Source of the DNA: Clostridia bacterium
GTDB taxonomy: Bacteria > Bacillota > Clostridia > Christensenellales > Aristaeellaceae
Reading direction: 5' to 3'
Assembly: GCA_017396845.1 (NCBI GenBank)
Contig: JAFQKQ010000085.1
Location: forward strand, 1 to 51,128
DNA length: 51,128 nt
Part shown: positions 6,645 through 15,469 of the stretch, in pieces
How positions within the stretch are numbered: the first letter of the stretch is position 1
How the letters are laid out: every line of letters begins with the position of its first letter
Translations under genes and position numbers: made by a program
Notes under the pieces: generated by a model
Databases searched by the model: none
The model's input: only the letters and a program-made list of their open reading frames with translations
What the model was told of the DNA's origin: nothing

Positions 6645-7358
6645 ATGTCCAATCCCAACATTCCCACGCCCCACATCACCGCCAAGGAAGGCGATTTCGC
6701 AAAAACCGTGCTCATGCCCGGCGACCCCCTGCGCTCGAAATTCATCGCGGAAAATTTCCTGGAGAACCCCGTGCTGGTAAACAATGTGCGCGGCGTTCAG
6801 GGCTACACCGGAACCTATCAGGGAAAGCGCGTATCCGTAATGGCCTCCGGCATGGGCATGCCCGCCATCGGCATTTATTCCTACGAGCTTTTCAACTTCT
6901 ACGGCGTTGAAGCGATCATCCGAATCGGCTCCGCCGGTATGATCAGCCAGAAGCTTAAGGTAAGAGATGTGGTTGCCGGCATGAGCGCCTATACGAATTC
7001 CGCCTTCGGCCGCCAGTTCGGCTTTGACGGCGTCGTCGCTCCCTGCTGCGATTACGAGCTGCTTTCCAAGGCCATCGAAGCCGGAAAGAAGATCGGCCAG
7101 GAAGTAGTGCCCGGCTCCGTGTATTCCTCCGACTGCTTCTATGACGAGTCTCAGCCGCTCGGCGCTCTTTCCAAGCTCGGCGTGCTCGCCGTTGAAATGG
7201 AAGCCGCCGCGCTGTACATGAATGCGGCCCGCGCCGGCAAAAAGGCGCTTGCGCTTCTCACCATTTCCGACAACCCCTTTACCGGCGAAGGCTTAAGCGC
7301 CGAGGATCGCCAGAACACATTTACGCAGATGATGAAAATCGCGCTGGAAATCGCTTAA
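6645..7358 (+). CDS. deoD: Purine-nucleoside phosphorylase, DeoD type
   Basis: Phosphorolysis of purine (deoxy)nucleosides to base and (deoxy)ribose 1-phosphate; a cytoplasmic, usually hexameric enzyme. The 237 residues match the bacterial DeoD family in length. Visible sites are TPHITAKEGDF with the base-end His10, the phosphate loop MPGDPLR (Gly26, Arg30), RIGSAGM with the phosphate Arg and Ser, VEMEAA for ribose binding, and LTISD with the catalytic Asp. GAGGTG precedes the ATG by seven bases. It stands alone with its own promoter and converges on the MFS gene, their stop codons overlapping. The nucleoside hydrolase at 12.7 kb is a second nucleoside-cleaving enzyme, but it is in a different operon. 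Confidence 0.96.
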   Translation: MSNPNIPTPHITAKEGDFAKTVLMPGDPLRSKFIAENFLENPVLVNNVRGVQGYTGTYQGKRVSVMASGMGMPAIGIYSYELFNFYGVEAIIRIGSAGMISQKLKVRDVVAGMSAYTNSAFGRQFGFDGVVAPCCDYELLSKAIEAGKKIGQEVVPGSVYSSDCFYDESQPLGALSKLGVLAVEMEAAALYMNAARAGKKALALLTISDNPFTGEGLSAEDRQNTFTQMMKIALEIA

Positions 7359-8545
7359 AACCTTTTTGAGCCTCTGACGGAAATCAAAGCCAACAGTGCG
7401 CCCGCAAGCGCGAACAGCACCCAGCAGGCGTAAACATGCGTCCATGCGCCCGTCAGCACGCGCAGATATCCCGTAAACGTACCCGCGAACGCGCTTCCCA
7501 GATAAATAGACGAATCGATCAGGCCGGCAACGAGTCCAACTCTGCCGGCTTTGTCGTATTCCATGGGCATCAGCACCGTAAACATGGTATTCGAGCCGTA
7601 CAGTATCGCGCTCATGGTTCCCAGAAATACGGAAAGCGCAAATACGGGCGCGTTCGGAAAAAGCCATAAAAGCAGAGACGGTATCACGCAGGCAAGCATC
7701 ATCGCAGCTGCGATCAGCCTTATGTTCCTCTTCACCATTCTAACAATCGTGCTGCCGATCAGTATGCCAACCATGTTTACAACGGGGATGATCAATGTAA
7801 ACAGTCCGTCGTCCGCACCGAGGATCGTAGGCGCCCAGGTAACTACGCCGTCGCGCAGAAAGCCGTTGGTCGCACTGCAAAGAAGAAGCGCGATAAGGCC
7901 GGTTGAAAACAGCGCATTGACGGGCATTTTTTCATAGTTTTTCATATCACCCGTCTTTTTATCGCCGGCAGGTCCTATGGACGGCATCATGATAAACGCA
8001 AGCAAAGCCGCAGTAATCAGAACAAGCGCGGGAAGCGCAAAGGCAAAGCGCCAGCCGAAGGCGCGCATCATCAATTCCGCAAGTCCCCACGCCGCTATAT
8101 GTCCCCCCGCAAGGGTAAATGACATCGTAAAGGACGCGCGGCTTCTCCTTGCGCCTTCAAAGTGCGCGGCAAGATATCTTACAATCGGCGTCCAGAGCAT
8201 CGACTGGAACGCGCCGTTTACCGCCCAAAGCGCGATCAGCAAAGTGAAATTTCCGGCGAATGAAAACAGAAGATTGCATAATGCGGATCCGAGAAGGCCG
8301 GATAAAATCAGCCTTTTGGGGCGCACTCTGTCGACGATTGAGCCGAATACAAACTGACCCGAAGCATAGACAATGGCAAATACCGTTTGAAGCGTTCCGC
8401 CGAGCGCTTCGTTTACATGAAGCTCCAGCATAATGCTGTCAAGCGATGCGGACATATTGAGCCTTCCGATGTACGCACAGAAATACACGATAAAGCAAAT
8501 CGTCAATATGCGCGCCTGAAGACGCGTAAACTTTCTTTCTTCCAT
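7355..8545 (-). CDS. MFS transporter, organophosphate-antiporter-like
   Basis: A 396-residue, 12-helix major facilitator. The segment NGAFQSMLWTPIVRYLAAHFE resembles the helix-4 region of GlpT/UhpT-type carriers (NGxxQGxGWPPxxRxL), and a charged DRVRPKR loop lies between helices 2 and 3, as is general for MFS. The start at 8545 (MEERKFTRLQAR) has AAGGGG ten bases upstream. Longer readings add a charged, low-hydrophobicity leader and are rejected. It is divergent from the operon starting at 8691, with the two promoters facing away across about 20 bases. It may therefore import the substrate of that operon or export its product. The substrate is unknown. Confidence 0.88.
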   Translation of the reverse strand: MEERKFTRLQARILTICFIVYFCAYIGRLNMSASLDSIMLELHVNEALGGTLQTVFAIVYASGQFVFGSIVDRVRPKRLILSGLLGSALCNLLFSFAGNFTLLIALWAVNGAFQSMLWTPIVRYLAAHFEGARRSRASFTMSFTLAGGHIAAWGLAELMMRAFGWRFAFALPALVLITAALLAFIMMPSIGPAGDKKTGDMKNYEKMPVNALFSTGLIALLLCSATNGFLRDGVVTWAPTILGADDGLFTLIIPVVNMVGILIGSTIVRMVKRNIRLIAAAMMLACVIPSLLLWLFPNAPVFALSVFLGTMSAILYGSNTMFTVLMPMEYDKAGRVGLVAGLIDSSIYLGSAFAGTFTGYLRVLTGAWTHVYACWVLFALAGALLALISVRGSKRF

Positions 8546-8579
8546 CCGCAGATTCCCCTTGTCATCCTCATTTTCATTT

Positions 8580-8608
8580 ATTATAAACCTCTTTCTCATT
8601 TTCCGCAA
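8580..8608 (-). promoter_or_regulatory. Promoter for the MFS gene
   Basis: On the minus strand TTGCGG and a perfect TATAAT are separated by 17 bases, 35 bases before the ATG at 8545. Confidence 0.72.
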
Positions 8609-8628
8609 TCCAAATTCCGAACTATTGC

Positions 8629-8657
8629 TTGTCACGAAACGCGTAAAATGATATACT
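8629..8657 (+). promoter_or_regulatory. Promoter for the OYE-SDR-flavoprotein operon
   Basis: TTGTCA and TATACT are separated by 17 bases, 33 bases before the ATG at 8691. The -35 boxes of this and the divergent MFS promoter are only 20 bases apart, so one regulator could control both. Confidence 0.75.
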
Positions 8658-8690
8658 AATTATAATGATAAACGGATCGGAGGTTCATGT

Positions 8691-9995
8691 ATGAAGCACG
8701 AAACCTTTCACTACCAGACATGGGACGATATAAAAAACGCCGGAAACGAGTTTGACGCGTTTCTCCCCGAAAGCCAAAATTTAGGCGCGCTGTTTACGCC
8801 GCTTGCCATCGGCGCGCACACATCCCATAACCGCATTGCCCTTCAGCCCATGGAGGGAACGGACGGAACTGCGGACGGAGCGCCGGGCGAATACACCATA
8901 AGGCGATATGAGCGGTTTGCAAAGGGCGGTGCGGGGCTGATTTGGTTTGAAGCGGTTGCCTCCGCGCCCGAGGTTCGCGCAAGCGCGCATCAATTGATGA
9001 TTACGGATAAAAACGCAGGCGAATATAAAAGGCTTCTTGATAACATACGTGAAATCGGCCTTCGGGAAAACGGATATCAGCCCGTCATCGTTATGCAGGC
9101 TACAAACTCCGGAAGGTATTCCAAGCCCAACGGCTTTCCCGAGCCGCTGATTGCATACAATAACCCGGTTCTTGAACCCGAACCCATCGACAAAAGACGG
9201 ATTCTGACAGATGATCAGCTAAAAGCCTACGAAGAAAAGTTCTACGATATGTCGCGCCTTGCCCAGGAGGCGGGCTTTGACGGAATCGACGTAAAATGCT
9301 GCCACAGATACCTCGCATGCGAGCTTCTTTCCGCGTACACCCGTGAGGGCGAATACGGCGGTTCATTTGAAAACCGCACGCGCTTTATCAGAAATGCGTT
9401 TTCCTACGCGAAATCCGCCGTGAAAACTCCCGGCTTTTTCCTTACCAGCCGCATGAACGCCTACGACGGCTTCCCCTATCCGTGGGGCTTCGGCGTTGAA
9501 GAAGGAAAGGGCATCGAGCCCGAAATCTCGGAGGCGGTGGATCTTGTAAAAATCCTGAAGCGAGATTACGATATACCGCTTATCAACATCACCATCGGAA
9601 ACCCGTACAAGAATCCGCACGTCAACCGCCCCTACGACCGCGGAAATTATGTGCCTGACGAGCATCCGCTCTACGGCGAAAGCCGCATGATGAAATGCGT
9701 GTCCCGCATTCAGAAGGAAAATCCGGATGTACCGGTCATCGGAAGCGCGTTTACATACCTTAGAACCTTCTCCCCCAATCTCGCCGCCGGCATGATCGAA
9801 GGCGGACATATACAGATGGCTGGCTTCGGTAGAATGGCTTTTGCGTATCCCGACTTTGTAAACGACCTGAAAAACAAAGGCGCGCTCGATCCCAAGCGCG
9901 TATGCATTGCCTGCGGCCAGTGCGCAAATCTGCTTCGCGCAGGTTCCCCGGCCGGCTGCGTGGTGCGCGACGGCTCCGTATACAAACCGATCTGA
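8691..9995 (+). CDS. Old yellow enzyme-type flavin oxidoreductase with C-terminal Cys cluster
   Basis: A 434-residue TIM-barrel flavin enzyme of the NADH:flavin oxidoreductase/2,4-dienoyl-CoA reductase group. Such enzymes usually reduce an activated C=C bond. After a 30-residue leader, LFTPLAIGAHTSHNRI marks the first strand and PMEGTDG the flavin region. EYGGSFENRTRF is the family signature. The usual HGAHGYL active-site stretch reads KCCHRYL. Near the end Cys405, 408, 411 and 423 form CX2CX2CX11C, close to the 4Fe-4S ligand set of dienoyl-CoA reductase. The protein stops right there, lacking the FAD/NAD(P) domains of that enzyme. CGGAGG lies eight bases before the ATG. It is first in a five-gene operon. 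The substrate is unknown. Confidence 0.88.
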   Translation: MKHETFHYQTWDDIKNAGNEFDAFLPESQNLGALFTPLAIGAHTSHNRIALQPMEGTDGTADGAPGEYTIRRYERFAKGGAGLIWFEAVASAPEVRASAHQLMITDKNAGEYKRLLDNIREIGLRENGYQPVIVMQATNSGRYSKPNGFPEPLIAYNNPVLEPEPIDKRRILTDDQLKAYEEKFYDMSRLAQEAGFDGIDVKCCHRYLACELLSAYTREGEYGGSFENRTRFIRNAFSYAKSAVKTPGFFLTSRMNAYDGFPYPWGFGVEEGKGIEPEISEAVDLVKILKRDYDIPLINITIGNPYKNPHVNRPYDRGNYVPDEHPLYGESRMMKCVSRIQKENPDVPVIGSAFTYLRTFSPNLAAGMIEGGHIQMAGFGRMAFAYPDFVNDLKNKGALDPKRVCIACGQCANLLRAGSPAGCVVRDGSVYKPI

Positions 9996-10010
9996 CGGAG
10001 GGAAAAGAAT

Positions 10011-10781
10011 ATGAAAAAGACTGCGGTTATCACAGGCGGCGGGCGCGGCATAGGCCTTGGCGTTACCAAGGCGCTTACCGGGAACGGTTACCGCGCATGC
10101 CTGATCGGGCAGAGCCCGGAATCGAGATACGAAGAGGAGCTTAAATCCCTTCGTGCAAACGGCGCGGAGATTTTCTATTTCCAGGGAAGCATCGCGGAAA
10201 AAAACGACAGAGAGGCTTTCATAAACGAAGTCGTTTCCCGCTTCGGAAGAATCGACGTACTTGTAAATAATGCGGGCGTAGCGCCGAAGACACGGCTGGA
10301 TATCCTCGAAACCACCGAGGAATCCTTCGACTATGTAATCGGCATCAACTTAAAGGGCACCATGTTTTTGACCCAGCTTGCGGCAAAGCAGATGGTTTCT
10401 CAGCCCATTCAGGAAGGAAGCCGCGGTATCATCGTAAACATTTCAAGCTTCTCCTCCACCGTATCTTCACCCAACCGCGGCGAATACTGCGTAAGCAAAG
10501 CGGGGATTTCGATGCTCACAAAGCTCTTTGCGGATCGCCTCGCATCCGAACAGATTTTCGTTTACGAGGTGCAGCCCGGCATTATCCGCACCGATATGAC
10601 CAGCAAAGTTACAGAAAAATACGATCGGCTGTTAGCCGGTCCCGATTTTCCCATCCACCGCTGGGGAACGCCCGAGGACGTAGCAAACGCCGTAATGGTG
10701 TTTGTAAGCGGAAAGCTTTCCTATACCACGGGACAGGTTTTGCATGTGGACGGCGGATATATTAACGTGAGGTCGATATGA
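10011..10781 (+). CDS. Short-chain dehydrogenase/reductase
   Basis: A 256-residue classical SDR. TGGGRGIG at 8-15 binds the cofactor, VNNAG is the structural motif, ISS carries the catalytic Ser, and YCVSK supplies the Tyr and Lys. The C-terminal GQVLHVDGGY is typical of the FabG-like group. It would interconvert an alcohol and a ketone using NAD(P)H. GGAGGG precedes the ATG by eight bases. It follows the old yellow enzyme gene by 15 bases and overlaps the flavoprotein start by four bases (ATGA), so it belongs to the same pathway rather than to fatty acid synthesis. Confidence 0.9.
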   Translation: MKKTAVITGGGRGIGLGVTKALTGNGYRACLIGQSPESRYEEELKSLRANGAEIFYFQGSIAEKNDREAFINEVVSRFGRIDVLVNNAGVAPKTRLDILETTEESFDYVIGINLKGTMFLTQLAAKQMVSQPIQEGSRGIIVNISSFSSTVSSPNRGEYCVSKAGISMLTKLFADRLASEQIFVYEVQPGIIRTDMTSKVTEKYDRLLAGPDFPIHRWGTPEDVANAVMVFVSGKLSYTTGQVLHVDGGYINVRSI

Positions 10782-12643
10782 TGACTGATATGAGCAACCG
10801 CTTTGATACGCTGATCGTCGGCATGGGCGCATCGGCCCTCAAATGCGCGGACGAGCTTTTGAGAATGGGAAGAAAAAGCGTAGGCATTTTGGTCGACGAC
10901 GCGCTTGACGGCACCTCCAGAAACGCCGGCAGCGATAAGCAGACCTATTACAAGCTCACGCTGTCGGGAAACGGCGGCGACAGCGTTCACGAAATGGCGG
11001 AAACGTTTTATTCCGGCGGCTGCGTCGACGGACCGAACGCGCTTACCGAAGCCGCGCTTTCGGCGGCATGCTTCCTGAGACTCTGCGAGCTGGGCGTTCA
11101 ATTTCCGATGAACCGGTACGGAGAATACATCGGCTACAGAACCGATCACGACCCCAGAAACCGCGCTACCTCCGCAGGTCCTCTCACCAGCAAGCAGATG
11201 ACGGAAGCGCTTGAAAAGAACGTGCGCGAAAAGGGCGCATGCTTTATCGAAAAGCGCATGGCGATCAGAATTGTTGTAAGAGACAATCAGGCAAAGGGCG
11301 TAATCTGCATTCATACGGAAACAAACGAATTGGAAGTATACTCGGCAAACCACATCGTATGGGCGACCGGAGGCCCCGCTTCGATCTATCAGAATGTATC
11401 CTATCCCGTTCGCCACACCGGCATGTCCGGCGCGCCCATATTGGCCGGCGCGGCCGCTTGCAACGTAACCGAATGGCAGTACGGTCTCGGCTCGATATCG
11501 CCCAAATGGAATGTATCGGGAACCTATATGCAGGCGCTTCCGAGATTTGTTTCGACCGATAAAGACGGAAACGACGGGCGCGATTTTCTGCTTCCCTATT
11601 TTGAAAACGAGAGCGATATGCTCTTAAGCATCTTCCTTAAAGGCTATCAGTGGCCCTTTGACGCAAGAAAGGCCGAAAAGGGTTCCAGCCGCATCGATCT
11701 TGCCGTTCAGGGCGAAATCCAAAAAGGCCGCCGCGTATTTTTGGATTTCCTGAATAACCCTGTTCCGGGTTTGATTGATTTTTCTTCTCTGAATGCGGAA
11801 GCCTATTCCTATCTTGAAAAAGCGGGCGCGTTTTTGGACACGCCCATTCAGCGCCTTGCCCATATGAATCAGCCCGCCATTGATTTTTACATGTCAAAGG
11901 GCGTGGATCTTCATACCGAAAAGCTTGAAATCGCGCTGTGCGCACAGCATATGAACGGCGGAATCATGGTGAATGAGTGGTGGGAAAGCGAAATAAAATC
12001 GCTTTTCGTAATCGGTGAATGCGCCGGAACCCACGGCGTGTACCGTCCCGGCGGAAGCGCCTTAAACGCAGGTCAGGTTGGCGGCGCAAGGAGCGCAAGA
12101 AAGATTTCGTTTTCTAAAGAACGCCTGCCGGATCCCGTAAACGCGGACGGGGAGATTTCAGAGCTTGCCGGCATAATTGAAAAATGCATGTCCGGCAAAA
12201 GCAATCTTTCCGAACTCGCGTTTGAAGAATCCTCCCTCATGAGCAAATACGCGGGCGCGATCCGCGAAAAGAGCGAAATAGACGCGCTGATTCAAAGAAA
12301 CACGCGCCTTTTGCAGCATTTTACGGAATATGTCCATATCTCAAGCAAAAAAGAGATTCCCGGCCTTTTCCGCTTTTTCGATACGCTCGTATCCCGCCTT
12401 ACAGTTGCTTCCGGCATCAAAGAATATATAAAATCCAGCGGCGTAAACCGCGGTTCAAGCGTATATACCGAAAACGGCGCGCCGGATTCTTTTTCCGATA
12501 CCGATCCCTATTTCGATTCCATTCAGGAAATCCGCCTGAAAGACGGCGTTTTCCATACTTCCATCCGCAATCGATTGCCCATTCCTTCGCAGGACGATTT
12601 TTTCGAAAATGTATGGCGTGAATTCCGCCAGGGAAAATGGTAA
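10778..12643 (+). CDS. Fumarate-reductase/succinate-dehydrogenase-like FAD flavoprotein
   Basis: A 621-residue flavoprotein. The dinucleotide-binding motif is VGMGASALKCAD at 14-25, followed by an acidic VDD. The region HMNGGIMVNEWWESEIKS, then LFVIGECAGTHGVYRPGGS, corresponds to the H-x-GGI ... GEC ... R-x-GG core of FrdA/SdhA/aspartate oxidase enzymes, and ATGGP lies in the FAD domain. These enzymes reduce or oxidise a C-C bond next to a carboxylate or carbonyl. It diverges strongly from true FrdA and there is no iron-sulfur or membrane subunit nearby. The start overlaps the SDR stop. Together with the old yellow enzyme it makes two separate ene-reductase-type proteins in one operon. The substrate is unknown. 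Confidence 0.85.
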   Translation: MMTDMSNRFDTLIVGMGASALKCADELLRMGRKSVGILVDDALDGTSRNAGSDKQTYYKLTLSGNGGDSVHEMAETFYSGGCVDGPNALTEAALSAACFLRLCELGVQFPMNRYGEYIGYRTDHDPRNRATSAGPLTSKQMTEALEKNVREKGACFIEKRMAIRIVVRDNQAKGVICIHTETNELEVYSANHIVWATGGPASIYQNVSYPVRHTGMSGAPILAGAAACNVTEWQYGLGSISPKWNVSGTYMQALPRFVSTDKDGNDGRDFLLPYFENESDMLLSIFLKGYQWPFDARKAEKGSSRIDLAVQGEIQKGRRVFLDFLNNPVPGLIDFSSLNAEAYSYLEKAGAFLDTPIQRLAHMNQPAIDFYMSKGVDLHTEKLEIALCAQHMNGGIMVNEWWESEIKSLFVIGECAGTHGVYRPGGSALNAGQVGGARSARKISFSKERLPDPVNADGEISELAGIIEKCMSGKSNLSELAFEESSLMSKYAGAIREKSEIDALIQRNTRLLQHFTEYVHISSKKEIPGLFRFFDTLVSRLTVASGIKEYIKSSGVNRGSSVYTENGAPDSFSDTDPYFDSIQEIRLKDGVFHTSIRNRLPIPSQDDFFENVWREFRQGKW

Positions 12644-12658
12644 GGAGGAAAAACAAAA

Positions 12659-13573
12659 ATGAACGAAGCGCTCTTAAGAAAGCTCGAAGTTCCCACCGGT
12701 ATTGTCGATGCAGTCATCGACAGCGACACATTTAATGAGATCGACGATCAGTTCGCCATCACCTATATGCTCAAATCCGATGAGCGTATAAACGTATGCG
12801 CGCTTTATGCGGCTCCGTTTTTCAATGAAAATTCCACCGGCCCGGAAGACGGCATGGAAAAAAGCTATAACGAAATGATCACGCTTCTTACGCTGACCGG
12901 GCGTGACGATCTGAAAAAATCAACGTTCAAGGGCTCAAGAAGCTATATGCCGGACGAGAACACCTTTGTTCCCTCCGAAGCCGCAAGCGACCTCGCCAGG
13001 CGCGCCATGAACTACACCAGCGAAAAGCCCCTCTACGTAGTCTCCATCGGCGCAATCACAAACGTCGCTTCCGCCATTGTAATGAATCCCGAAATCATCG
13101 ACCGCATCGTAATCGTCTGGCTGGGCGGTCATGCGCTCGAATGGCCGGATACCGCGGAATTCAATATGCGCCAAGACGTCGCGGCGGCGCGCATCATATT
13201 CGGCTGCGGCGCGGCGCTTGTACAGCTTCCCTGCGCGGGCGTGGTGGATCACTTCACGATCTCTGAACCCGAACTTAATTACTGGATCAAGGGAAAGAGT
13301 CCGATCTGCGACCATCTGGCCGACGCCACCATTCGCGCAGCGAATTCCTATGCGGAAGGCAAGCCCTGGACGCGCGTAATCTGGGATGTAACCGCCGTCG
13401 CATTCCTGACTAACGACAACAACCGCTTCATGGATTCCCGCCTGATCCCCTCGCCCATACCGCAGTATGACGATCATTATTCCTTTGATCCGCGCAGACA
13501 TCCCATCCGCTATGTATGGAATATCCACCGCGACAGACTGATGGAGGACCTCATTTATAAACTGACAAAGTAA
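12659..13573 (+). CDS. Nucleoside hydrolase family protein
   Basis: A 304-residue protein of the inosine-uridine preferring nucleoside hydrolase fold. The calcium-binding N-terminal motif reads DSDTFNEIDD at 21-30 instead of the usual DTDxGxDD; Asp29 and Asp30 fit the paired Asp. Further family landmarks are VSIGAITNVASA, IVWLGGHAL, EFNMRQDVAAA and WDVTAVAFL, whose Asp would be the last calcium ligand. The family hydrolyses N-glycosidic bonds of ribosides. The variant motif means the true substrate may not be a standard nucleoside. AAGGAGG precedes the ATG by ten bases, 15 bases after the flavoprotein gene. Confidence 0.87.
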   Translation: MNEALLRKLEVPTGIVDAVIDSDTFNEIDDQFAITYMLKSDERINVCALYAAPFFNENSTGPEDGMEKSYNEMITLLTLTGRDDLKKSTFKGSRSYMPDENTFVPSEAASDLARRAMNYTSEKPLYVVSIGAITNVASAIVMNPEIIDRIVIVWLGGHALEWPDTAEFNMRQDVAAARIIFGCGAALVQLPCAGVVDHFTISEPELNYWIKGKSPICDHLADATIRAANSYAEGKPWTRVIWDVTAVAFLTNDNNRFMDSRLIPSPIPQYDDHYSFDPRRHPIRYVWNIHRDRLMEDLIYKLTK

Positions 13574-13590
13574 ATTCCGGAGGACATACT

Positions 13591-14880
13591 ATGCAGCGTA
13601 CTAAGCCCGTCACCGTCGTAGTCGTCGGCGCAGGCCACAGAAGCGAATGGTACGGAAAATACTCCATTGATCACCCGGATGAAATGCAGGTTGTAGGTGT
13701 AGCCGATCCCAATCCCATCCGAAGAAGAGAATTTCAGAAGCTGTTTCATTTCCCGGATGAGAACATGTTTGAAGACGCCGATGCACTCGCAAAAAAAGGC
13801 AAGATCGCGGACGCCGTGATCAATGGCACCATGGACGAAATGCATGTCTCCACCACCATTCCTCTCATGCGCGCGGGATATGATATACTGCTTGAAAAGC
13901 CCTTTGCTCTTACGGAAGAGGAAATGTGGGAATTGTACGGCGTTATGCTGGAAACAGGCAGGCGCGTGATGATCTGCCATGTACTCAGATACGCGCCCTT
14001 CTATCAGGCTGTAAAAGAAGAGATTTTAAAGGGCACGCTCGGAAAAATCCTCTCCATTCAGGCCAGCGAATATGTTTCCTATCACCATATGTCCATCGCC
14101 TATGTGCGGGGCAAATGGAATTCGTTAAAAAAATGCAAAAGCGGCATGCTGCTTGCCAAGAGCTGTCACGATATGGACATCATCATGTGGCTCATGAACA
14201 AAACGCCCGTATCCATATCGAGCTTCGGAAGCCTTATGTATTTCACACCCGAAAACGCGCCCGAGGGCGCGGGCGAGCGCTGCATGGCGGACTGCCCGCA
14301 TGTGGACACATGCGTATACTCCGCAAAGCGGCTCTATATTGATCATCCCGACCGCTGGCGCTTTTATGTGTGGACGGAATTCGAAGGCAAGGAAAACGTA
14401 ACCATTGAAGACAAAATCCGCCTCATGAAGGAAGAAAGTCCGTTCGGAAGATGCATATTCAAATGCGATAACGACGTGGTAGACCACCAAAGCGCGATCA
14501 TTCAGTTTGAAGACGGCGCTACTGCGAGCATGAACATGATTTCAAACTCAGGCAAGGACGAAAGAACCCTCCACATCGTAGGCTCTAAAGCGGAAATCTA
14601 CGGAAGCTTTGAAGACGGCTTCTTCACCATCCGCGCCATCGATCCCAGTCCCGGCATCGAATGCACCGCCAAAATCGTAGATCCTTTGTCCGGCAAAAAA
14701 GCGGAAGGCCACGGCGGCGGCGATCACAGGCTGGTTCAGGATTTTATAAGGTATGTAAGAGGACAGGAAACAACGCCGTCCCTCACCTCTCTTTCCGACT
14801 CCATCTACGGACACCAGGCGGTGTTTCTCGCCGAAAAATCCAGAGAAACGGGACAAACGCAAACATTCAAAGCGATATAA
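13591..14880 (+). CDS. Gfo/Idh/MocA family dehydrogenase with Cys-rich insert
   Basis: A 429-residue NAD(P)-dependent sugar or inositol dehydrogenase-like protein. The Rossmann segment VVVVGAGHRSEW starts it, EKPF at 102-105 carries the conserved Lys, and CHDMDIIMWL at 192-201 gives the catalytic His region. Between strands of the substrate domain lies GERCMADCPHVDTCVYS, with Cys231, 235 and 241, not part of the core fold and possibly metal-binding. These enzymes oxidise or reduce a ring hydroxyl of a sugar or cyclitol. It is last in the operon, 17 bases after the nucleoside hydrolase, and is followed by a strong terminator. This suggests the pathway handles the sugar released by the hydrolase. 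Confidence 0.88.
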   Translation: MQRTKPVTVVVVGAGHRSEWYGKYSIDHPDEMQVVGVADPNPIRRREFQKLFHFPDENMFEDADALAKKGKIADAVINGTMDEMHVSTTIPLMRAGYDILLEKPFALTEEEMWELYGVMLETGRRVMICHVLRYAPFYQAVKEEILKGTLGKILSIQASEYVSYHHMSIAYVRGKWNSLKKCKSGMLLAKSCHDMDIIMWLMNKTPVSISSFGSLMYFTPENAPEGAGERCMADCPHVDTCVYSAKRLYIDHPDRWRFYVWTEFEGKENVTIEDKIRLMKEESPFGRCIFKCDNDVVDHQSAIIQFEDGATASMNMISNSGKDERTLHIVGSKAEIYGSFEDGFFTIRAIDPSPGIECTAKIVDPLSGKKAEGHGGGDHRLVQDFIRYVRGQETTPSLTSLSDSIYGHQAVFLAEKSRETGQTQTFKAI

Positions 14881-14922
14881 GAAAACAACCCCTTCCAAAA
14901 TAAGGAAGGGGCTGTTTTCGGC
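14878..14922. terminator. Bidirectional rho-independent terminator
   Basis: Arms 14882-14896 and 14904-14918 pair over 15 positions with one A-C mismatch and a 7-base loop. The plus arm ends in TTTT, and the minus reading continues TTTTCTTATAT. It serves both the five-gene operon and the convergent zinc-ribbon gene. Confidence 0.85.
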
Positions 14923-15247: not shown

Positions 15248-15469
15248 GGCTGCAAAGAACGGCTGACCTGGTCTTTGACCCCACACTCGCCGGCCGGAGG
15301 TTTCGCTCATAAGCCTTAGCTCCCCACTACTCGCCCTCTCAGCATCTTTGTGCTGGCCGGTCTTACATCTAAGCCGCACCATGCTCACCGGAACTTTGTC
15401 CGGGTTACGTGGATCGTTTTGCCTGCGACTGGCATCGACTTGCAACCACAGACCCATTCTTTCGCAACC
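15248..15469 (-). ncRNA. Structured RNA, probably the raiA motif
   Basis: About 222 bases on the minus strand begin almost exactly at the start predicted from a consensus promoter. Its ends pair: GGTTGCGAAAGA at 15469-15458 with TCTTTGCAGCC at 15258-15248, eleven pairs with one bulged G. Inside is at least one clear hairpin, CCGGA-CAAAGT-TCCGG, plus many GC-rich blocks. No open reading frame or protein homology is seen in it. Clostridial raiA-motif RNAs are about this size and are often found next to comFC, which is the gene just upstream. The motif identity is inferred from size, closing stem and location, not from a covariance search. It is not tmRNA, RNase P or SRP RNA by their core motifs. 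Confidence 0.6.

Follow-up and report, generated by a model that had tools for sequence, protein, structure and literature searches.

The window analyzed here is a stretch of 51,128 nucleotides from a Clostridia bacterium of the Aristaeellaceae (contig JAFQKQ010000085.1 of GenBank assembly GCA_017396845.1), and the system in question is a group of five genes encoding an old yellow enzyme (OYE) family protein, a short-chain dehydrogenase/reductase (SDR), a fumarate-reductase/aspartate-oxidase-type flavoprotein (FRD), a nucleoside-hydrolase-like protein, and a Gfo/Idh/MocA dehydrogenase. The evidence supported one operon of five genes. In homologous loci of other genomes, the five genes do not stay together as a conserved unit: SDR and FRD form the core, OYE is often with them, and the hydrolase and this Gfo protein seem to have been added in the window's genus. 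The explanation that we prefer, at somewhat short of an even chance, is a sugar-acid utilization operon built around this conserved redox module.

The source assembly comprises 2.79 Mb in 123 contigs and is 73% complete, and the window is its contig C57. Five open reading frames lie on the + strand at 8691–14880, with intergenic spacings of 15, −4, 15, and 17 bases. They encode the OYE protein (P0001, 434 residues, 8691–9995; PF00724 Oxidored_FMN), the SDR (P0002, 256 residues, 10011–10781; adh_short/adh_short_C2), the FRD (P0003, 621 residues, 10778–12643; PF00890 FAD_binding_2), the nucleoside-hydrolase-like protein (P0004, 304 residues, 12659–13573; PF01156 IU_nuc_hydro), and the Gfo/Idh/MocA dehydrogenase (429 residues, 13591–14880; PF01408, PF22725, and PF02894). 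Alignments of 31, 36, and 14 sequences were used for P0001, P0003, and P0004, respectively. A purine-rich ribosome-binding site was seen by eye upstream of all five starts, the weakest being that of the flavoprotein gene. The promoter (TTGTCA-17-TATACT with an extended −10) was placed at 8629–8657 on the + strand. Matches to the promoter pattern were no commoner in the region than expected by chance (9 found vs 8.8 in shuffles), and support for this promoter comes instead from conservation: in G000, G001, and G002, the three species of the genus, CTTG...TGnTATAmT (the −35 TTG with the extended −10) aligned at the same position. Downstream, a terminator-like stem-loop with eight pairs and a T-rich tail was found at 14889–14911 (+), and a stem-loop of another sequence stood at the equivalent position in G001 by eye. 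Such sites numbered 24 in the region, compared with 13.8 ± 4.2 in shuffles.

A first-pass annotation, made from the sequence alone, had described the same five-gene layout and spacings with a divergent MFS gene, and the open reading frame list and Pfam agreed with it. The single operon it proposed was likewise upheld by the spacing, the ribosome-binding sites, and the conserved promoter, the last at the position it had given. Its strong terminator corresponds to the terminator-like stem-loop given above. Across the three species, the OYE, SDR, flavoprotein, hydrolase, and MFS genes were syntenic, together with a DeoD gene beyond the MFS gene. The Gfo gene was found in two of them, G000 and G001 (72% identity in G001); in G002, which is 93% complete, the operon Gfo was not found, and the best homologue (32%) lay at another place in the genome.

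The conservation of the module was then evaluated outside the genus. Genome contigs were scanned for FRD using exact short peptides of P0003, and the best 80 of 168 relatives were kept, with homologues in the 80-locus layout called at 80 bits. In 69 of the 80 loci, an SDR gene preceded FRD at a distance of no more than 400 bases, 57 had a same-strand OYE gene at most 6 kb away, and OYE-SDR-FRD was the commonest order (47 loci). When the count was restricted to the 55 loci that extend at least 3 kb upstream and 2.5 kb downstream of FRD, SDR was adjacent in 47 and OYE was present in 41. The hydrolase, the MFS protein, and DeoD were each found in 0/80 module loci at this threshold, and an operon-type Gfo protein was found in one, L107, as a weak match (28%, 92 bits). 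The single conserved five-gene pathway of the first-pass annotation was therefore not borne out. Independent scattering among relatives, which it had named as evidence against itself, was seen in part: the hydrolase and this Gfo scatter, whereas SDR and OYE stayed with FRD in the 47 and 41 loci just given. Clostridia and Spirochaetota supplied most of the module loci, and Actinomycetota supplied loci that lack OYE. Of 398 genomes sampled across the phylum, 21 held an FRD orthologue (E at most 1e-70), and a match below 1e-100 was obtained in 17 of 60 closer genomes, among which that of the window is counted.

The histories of the three redox genes were also compared. Distance correlations were calculated for the window together with 65 loci in which all three genes occur, using 2000 permutations per pair. 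The SDR and FRD distances were correlated at r = 0.84, and those of OYE with either at 0.48–0.49; for each pair, 0/2000 permutations were as high. Outside the genus, the nearest relatives of the window OYE were those of its own family (62–66%; L123, L119, L120, and L126), those of the SDR were from distant Clostridia (58–60%), and those of the FRD were from distant Clostridia and Spirochaetes (about 50%). Quick trees covered OYE and FRD, and L118, one of eight same-family rows, was left out as incomplete. A single clade of the genus and the seven remaining same-family rows was not rejected for OYE (p-AU 0.478), whereas it was rejected for FRD (p-AU 0.006), with the caveat of long branches. The operon thus looks like a mosaic, in which a locally derived OYE and two more genes have joined a core of SDR and FRD.

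Partner genes of the module were counted with tblastn, both in 94 FRD loci (the 80 scan loci and 14 more) and in a comparison set of 20 loci picked for the hydrolase or Gfo. They were named by NCBIfam and Pfam, several below cut-off, and the labels GH43, LIV, LplB, TRAP, and LacI were assigned from sequence reading. A kinase for 2-keto-3-deoxygluconate (KDG) or an aldolase for 2-keto-3-deoxy-6-phosphogluconate (KDPG) was present in 10/94 module loci vs 0/20 comparison loci. The corresponding counts were 19/94 vs 0/20 for IlvD/Edd-type dehydratases, 35/94 vs 0/20 for TIM barrels, some of which were psicose-epimerase-like, 16/94 vs 0/20 for Gfo proteins of another family, 26/94 vs 0/20 for LIV-type ATPases, and 10/94 vs 0/20 for GH43. 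The KDPG aldolases scored over their cut-off, and the KDG kinases and the IlvD-type protein below theirs. Other named partners were a Zn-alcohol dehydrogenase, a PreA-like protein, a 2-hydroxyacid dehydrogenase, and an Ldh_2 protein, and Hepar_II_III (heparinase II/III-type lyase) domains occurred in L122 and L086. In Rhizobium, FRD was flanked by a levoglucosan-dehydrogenase-like Gfo protein (305.9 bits against a family cut-off of 650) and a KdgK-like kinase, the latter also below cut-off.

These 10 loci constitute a likeness to the classical hexuronate/KDG route, and a second likeness was found in the window genome, where a KDPG aldolase (over cut-off) and UxaC were present away from the operon, so that a KDG-type product could be used. 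The classical route is not known to include an OYE or a fumarate-reductase-type flavoprotein. The sugar-type substrate proposed in the first-pass annotation is plausible, whereas its nucleoside- or flavonoid-like glycoside is not favored, since the named partners were mostly sugar and sugar-acid genes. A published account of the operon, or of the module together with sugar acids, was not found in the open-licence literature.

A version of the module was also found in Escherichia coli. In some strains, the ytfB-rplI interval holds genes for an SDR, a TIM barrel, a crotonase, a CoA transferase, an FRD, and three TRAP proteins (L129:7898–16821), with a TetR gene divergent from these eight. The E. 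coli FRD shared 35% identity with P0003 along almost the entire protein, and the SDR was 40% identical to P0002 and belonged to NF009386 (419 bits); no OYE match was found in the ytfB-rplI stretch. At least 80% of the 8.9 kb stretch was present in 1440 of 5426 complete genomes, that is, about a quarter. The best PDB match of its TRAP binding protein (L129:15850–16818) was 4ovr, with 4n15, 4n91, and 4mhf among the best, and several further matches are presumably hexuronate binders as well. In the excerpt of PMC7660916 consulted, 4N91 and 4MHF are glucuronate and/or galacturonate binders, and the hexuronate binder STM3169 was modelled on 4N15. A published description of the E. coli cluster was not found in a search limited to open-licence literature, and the excerpt of PMC12928451 mentions neither ytfB nor a CoA transferase nor fumarate.

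The three redox proteins were also compared with known families. P0001 carries the four-cysteine motif C405xxC408xxC411x11C423; the spacing CxxCxxCx11C was kept in 28 of the 31 aligned OYE sequences, and the remaining three had one extra residue before the last Cys. No GXGXXG motif was found in P0001 (a GxGxxA occurs), Pfam gave Oxidored_FMN only, and GXGXXG occurred by pattern in 2/31 aligned sequences. Because the protein combines the four-cysteine motif and FMN with no pyridine-nucleotide domain, it should need a partner electron donor such as ferredoxin. In a profile alignment with YqjM (1z41) read by eye, the column of the first substrate His was occupied by K202 and that of the second by H205. 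The YqjM-type pair (HxxH/N) is accordingly missing from P0001, with Lys202 replacing the first His, and DxKxCHxYL was found in all 31 aligned sequences. P0002 was placed in NF009386 (PRK12745; 315.5 bits against a curated cut-off of 250), a family named 3-ketoacyl-ACP reductase.

P0003 shares the FAD_binding_2 family with the fumarate reductase and L-aspartate oxidase flavoproteins, as well as the column of the FrdA substrate Arg, which was occupied by R423 in an alignment by eye and was invariant in 36/36 sequences. The column of the FrdA substrate His held Q390, followed by H391, both also invariant in 36/36. The FrdA residues compared are Arg390 and His355. P0003 differs from these flavoproteins in Gln390 and in its weak scores, being far from all named subfamilies (highest score 99.5 bits, cut-off 452.75). 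QH and RPGG are retained in the FRD proteins of E. coli and Rhizobium. A fumarate-reductase-type enzyme with a conserved Arg would suit a carboxylate next to a C–C bond, and an enone on a uronic acid ring would resemble fumarate chemically and would also suit OYE and SDR.

We infer the substrate, direction, and step order of the module as follows. The MFS protein would import a uronic-acid-type (carboxylated) sugar or glycoside, which the hydrolase-like protein and/or the Gfo dehydrogenase would open or oxidize. An enone with a carboxylate, that is, a ketone beside a C=C bond of the sugar, would thereby arise. With ferredoxin or some other protein as electron donor, OYE would reduce a C=C bond, SDR would interconvert the ketone and the alcohol, and FRD would act on the C–C bond adjoining the carboxylate, which Arg423 would hold. 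The product would then enter 2-keto-3-deoxy-sugar-acid metabolism (KDG to KDPG to pyruvate). A bolder form of this reading, which we offer only tentatively and consider to be less probable than the sugar-acid operon itself, is an undescribed and widespread route by which uronic acids or uronides would be used: the two flavoenzymes and the SDR would act on a sugar-derived enone carboxylate, and E. coli would hold a version without OYE. Should the substrate indeed be of this type, Clostridia and Spirochaetes of the gut and rumen would possess an unrecognized route to a very common sugar class, and a substantial fraction of E. coli strains would hold the same uronate capability.

Several observations weigh against the sugar-acid reading. 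The window's own operon contains no sugar-acid gene; a hydrolase-like gene is present instead, and DeoD adjoins the MFS gene. Neither KDG kinase nor KDPG aldolase was found in the available DNA of 84/94 loci, many of which are short stretches. The LplB-type permease was no rarer in the comparison loci (15/94 vs 4/20), and that set is both small and unmatched. The 94-locus counts are not fully independent, as L050 and L115 share the same gene layout and are probably from one genome; a second lyase probe, L119_0, was used in the counting without a Pfam class; and the scan by exact P0003 peptides under-samples distant members. Transporter types vary by lineage, which may mean several substrates. 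The TRAP binding protein of L045 (Clostridium) matched 4pbq best (145 bits) and then mostly sialic-acid binders, and does not look hexuronate-specific. Finally, the substrate His of FrdA is not kept in P0003, where Gln390 stands in its column.

Among the alternatives, the one that survives best reverses the direction, although we regard it as unlikely. FRD and SDR would dehydrogenate a sugar acid to an unsaturated ketone, and OYE would dispose of the electrons. In agreement with this, SDR-FRD occurred without OYE in six Actinomycetota loci (L100, L107, L108, L109, L111, and L112) as well as in E. coli, and the Rhizobium FRD had neither SDR nor OYE alongside. Several of the OYE-less genera are aerobic, and the FRD family also resembles L-aspartate oxidase. 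However, OYE was usually present in the mostly clostridial set (57/80), which is a better fit to reduction, and no oxidase partner was identified.

The route proposed in the first-pass annotation is improbable as well. It would involve import of a glycoside or nucleoside-like molecule, hydrolysis of its bond, action of Gfo on the sugar, and action of the flavin enzymes and SDR on the aglycone. Its handling of redox steps by two flavin enzymes and an SDR was supported, it agrees with the five genes being one operon, and DeoD and MFS adjoin the operon in all three species. In P0004, D21, D23, D29, D30, E167-F168-N169, and D243 were kept in 14/14 aligned sequences, so that the Asp, Glu, and Asn of the fold are intact; we take these Asp residues to bind Ca and the EFN motif to be a nucleoside hydrolase feature. 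Compared with RihA, P0004 has two extra residues in its N-terminal motif. Trp242, however, aligned with a His of RihA that is presumably the leaving-group His before the last metal Asp, and Trp was found in 14/14. As Trp242 stands in place of this His, ordinary nucleoside cleavage by P0004 is doubtful.

The distribution of the two genes also speaks against that glycoside route, given the near absence of the hydrolase (0/80) and this Gfo (1/80) from other module loci and the retention of the other four genes in G002 without Gfo. Relatives of P0004 at 55–63% were found both within the window's family and elsewhere in the order, and in 31/297 genomes overall (E at most 1e-15). The 13 loci of hydrolase relatives examined (L174–L186) gave no OYE, SDR, or FRD match except a weak SDR (27%, L175). 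Gfo relatives were common (84/297 genomes, E at most 1e-30), and the seven loci examined (L187–L193) had no redox genes. A distant hydrolase homologue near the module favors the glycoside route: at L127:3859–5019 (G051, another family), a gene for a 26% identical protein lies two genes from an OYE-SDR-FRD module in opposite orientation. Operons for glycoside oxidation, elimination, hydration, and reduction (C-glycoside dgp, Agrobacterium OGE, and levoglucosan), as far as their partial descriptions go, have only Gfo/Idh/MocA in common with the window. In the excerpt of PMC10628242, Gfo is paired with sugar-phosphate-isomerase-type TIM barrels, whereas the window's five genes include no TIM-barrel eliminase/hydratase (AP_endonuc_2 type) by Pfam. 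The excerpts of PMC10628242 and PMC8563793 do not contain the words "old yellow".

An equol-like reduction is still less probable. The substrate would be a cyclic phenolic or terpenoid of plant origin, which the hydrolase or Gfo would release from its glycoside; OYE would then reduce the enone C=C bond, SDR would reduce the ketone, and FRD would remove the resulting hydroxyl. According to the excerpt of PMC4381290, equol is formed from daidzein by an NADH:flavin oxidoreductase (daidzein reductase, DZNR), an SDR (dihydrodaidzein reductase, DHDR), and a succinate-dehydrogenase/fumarate-reductase-like flavoprotein (tetrahydrodaidzein reductase, THDR) with contiguous genes, and these classes act in that order in Slackia. 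By description, the window's contiguous OYE-class, SDR, and fumarate-reductase-like genes are alike. For the three redox classes, the remark in the first-pass annotation that it knew no described pathway with such a set accordingly needs qualification. The same excerpt reports that the SDR of L. garvieae is similar to 3-oxoacyl-ACP reductases and that THDR is similar to fumarate reductase flavoproteins; the family name of P0002, 3-ketoacyl-ACP reductase, agrees with the former.

On the other side, DZNR is described in the excerpt of PMC10297411 with two NAD(P)H GXGXXG motifs and a CXXCX3CX12C 4Fe-4S motif, whereas the window OYE, with 434 residues, has no GXGXXG and a CxxCxxCx11C spacing. P0001 does not fit CXXCX3CX12C, and 2/31 aligned sequences also fit CxxCx3C with x11–12 by pattern. 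Moreover, the two accounts of THDR disagree: PMC10297411 (in part) treats it as a probable SAM enzyme that acts through a radical intermediate, and PMC4381290 (in part) as a flavoprotein. The nameable partners of the window OYE's relatives in other loci are sugar and sugar-acid genes. By analogy, the module may nevertheless work like the equol trio, and if the uronate route is right, it would be the sugar-side counterpart of that trio, likened by function only.

Two further candidates were put low. Purine or nucleoside salvage was disfavored as DeoD is convergent, has its own promoter side, and was absent from the module loci, and quinate or shikimate catabolism was disfavored as KDG kinase and KDPG aldolase better fit sugar acids.

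The neighboring genes were annotated in the same manner. The divergent MFS carrier (PF07690 MFS_1) occupies 7355–8545 on the − strand. Its homologues have 399 residues, and its start is most likely 8545 rather than 8635, which makes the listed open reading frame slightly overlong. The protein weakly resembled the PgtP-type organophosphate family (99.2 bits, cut-off 407.75) and the D-galactonate transporter (55.9 bits, cut-off 395). The DeoD-type purine-nucleoside phosphorylase gene (6645–7358, +; NF004489, 308.6 bits against a cut-off of 230) is its convergent neighbor and probably lies outside the operon; DeoD was 88–89% identical and syntenic in G001 and G002. The stop ends of the DeoD and MFS genes overlap by four bases (7355–7358), and the same tail-to-tail order was seen in G001 and G002. 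Just 3′ of the operon, a raiA RNA, a member of the structured RNA family RF03072, was found at 15254–15462 on the − strand (203.1 bits; gathering score, 101.3). A TPP riboswitch (RF00059, 62.7 bits) was found at 2744–2855 on the − strand, upstream of a 199-residue open reading frame (2087–2686) that, by appearance, we guess to encode a membrane protein for thiamine uptake.

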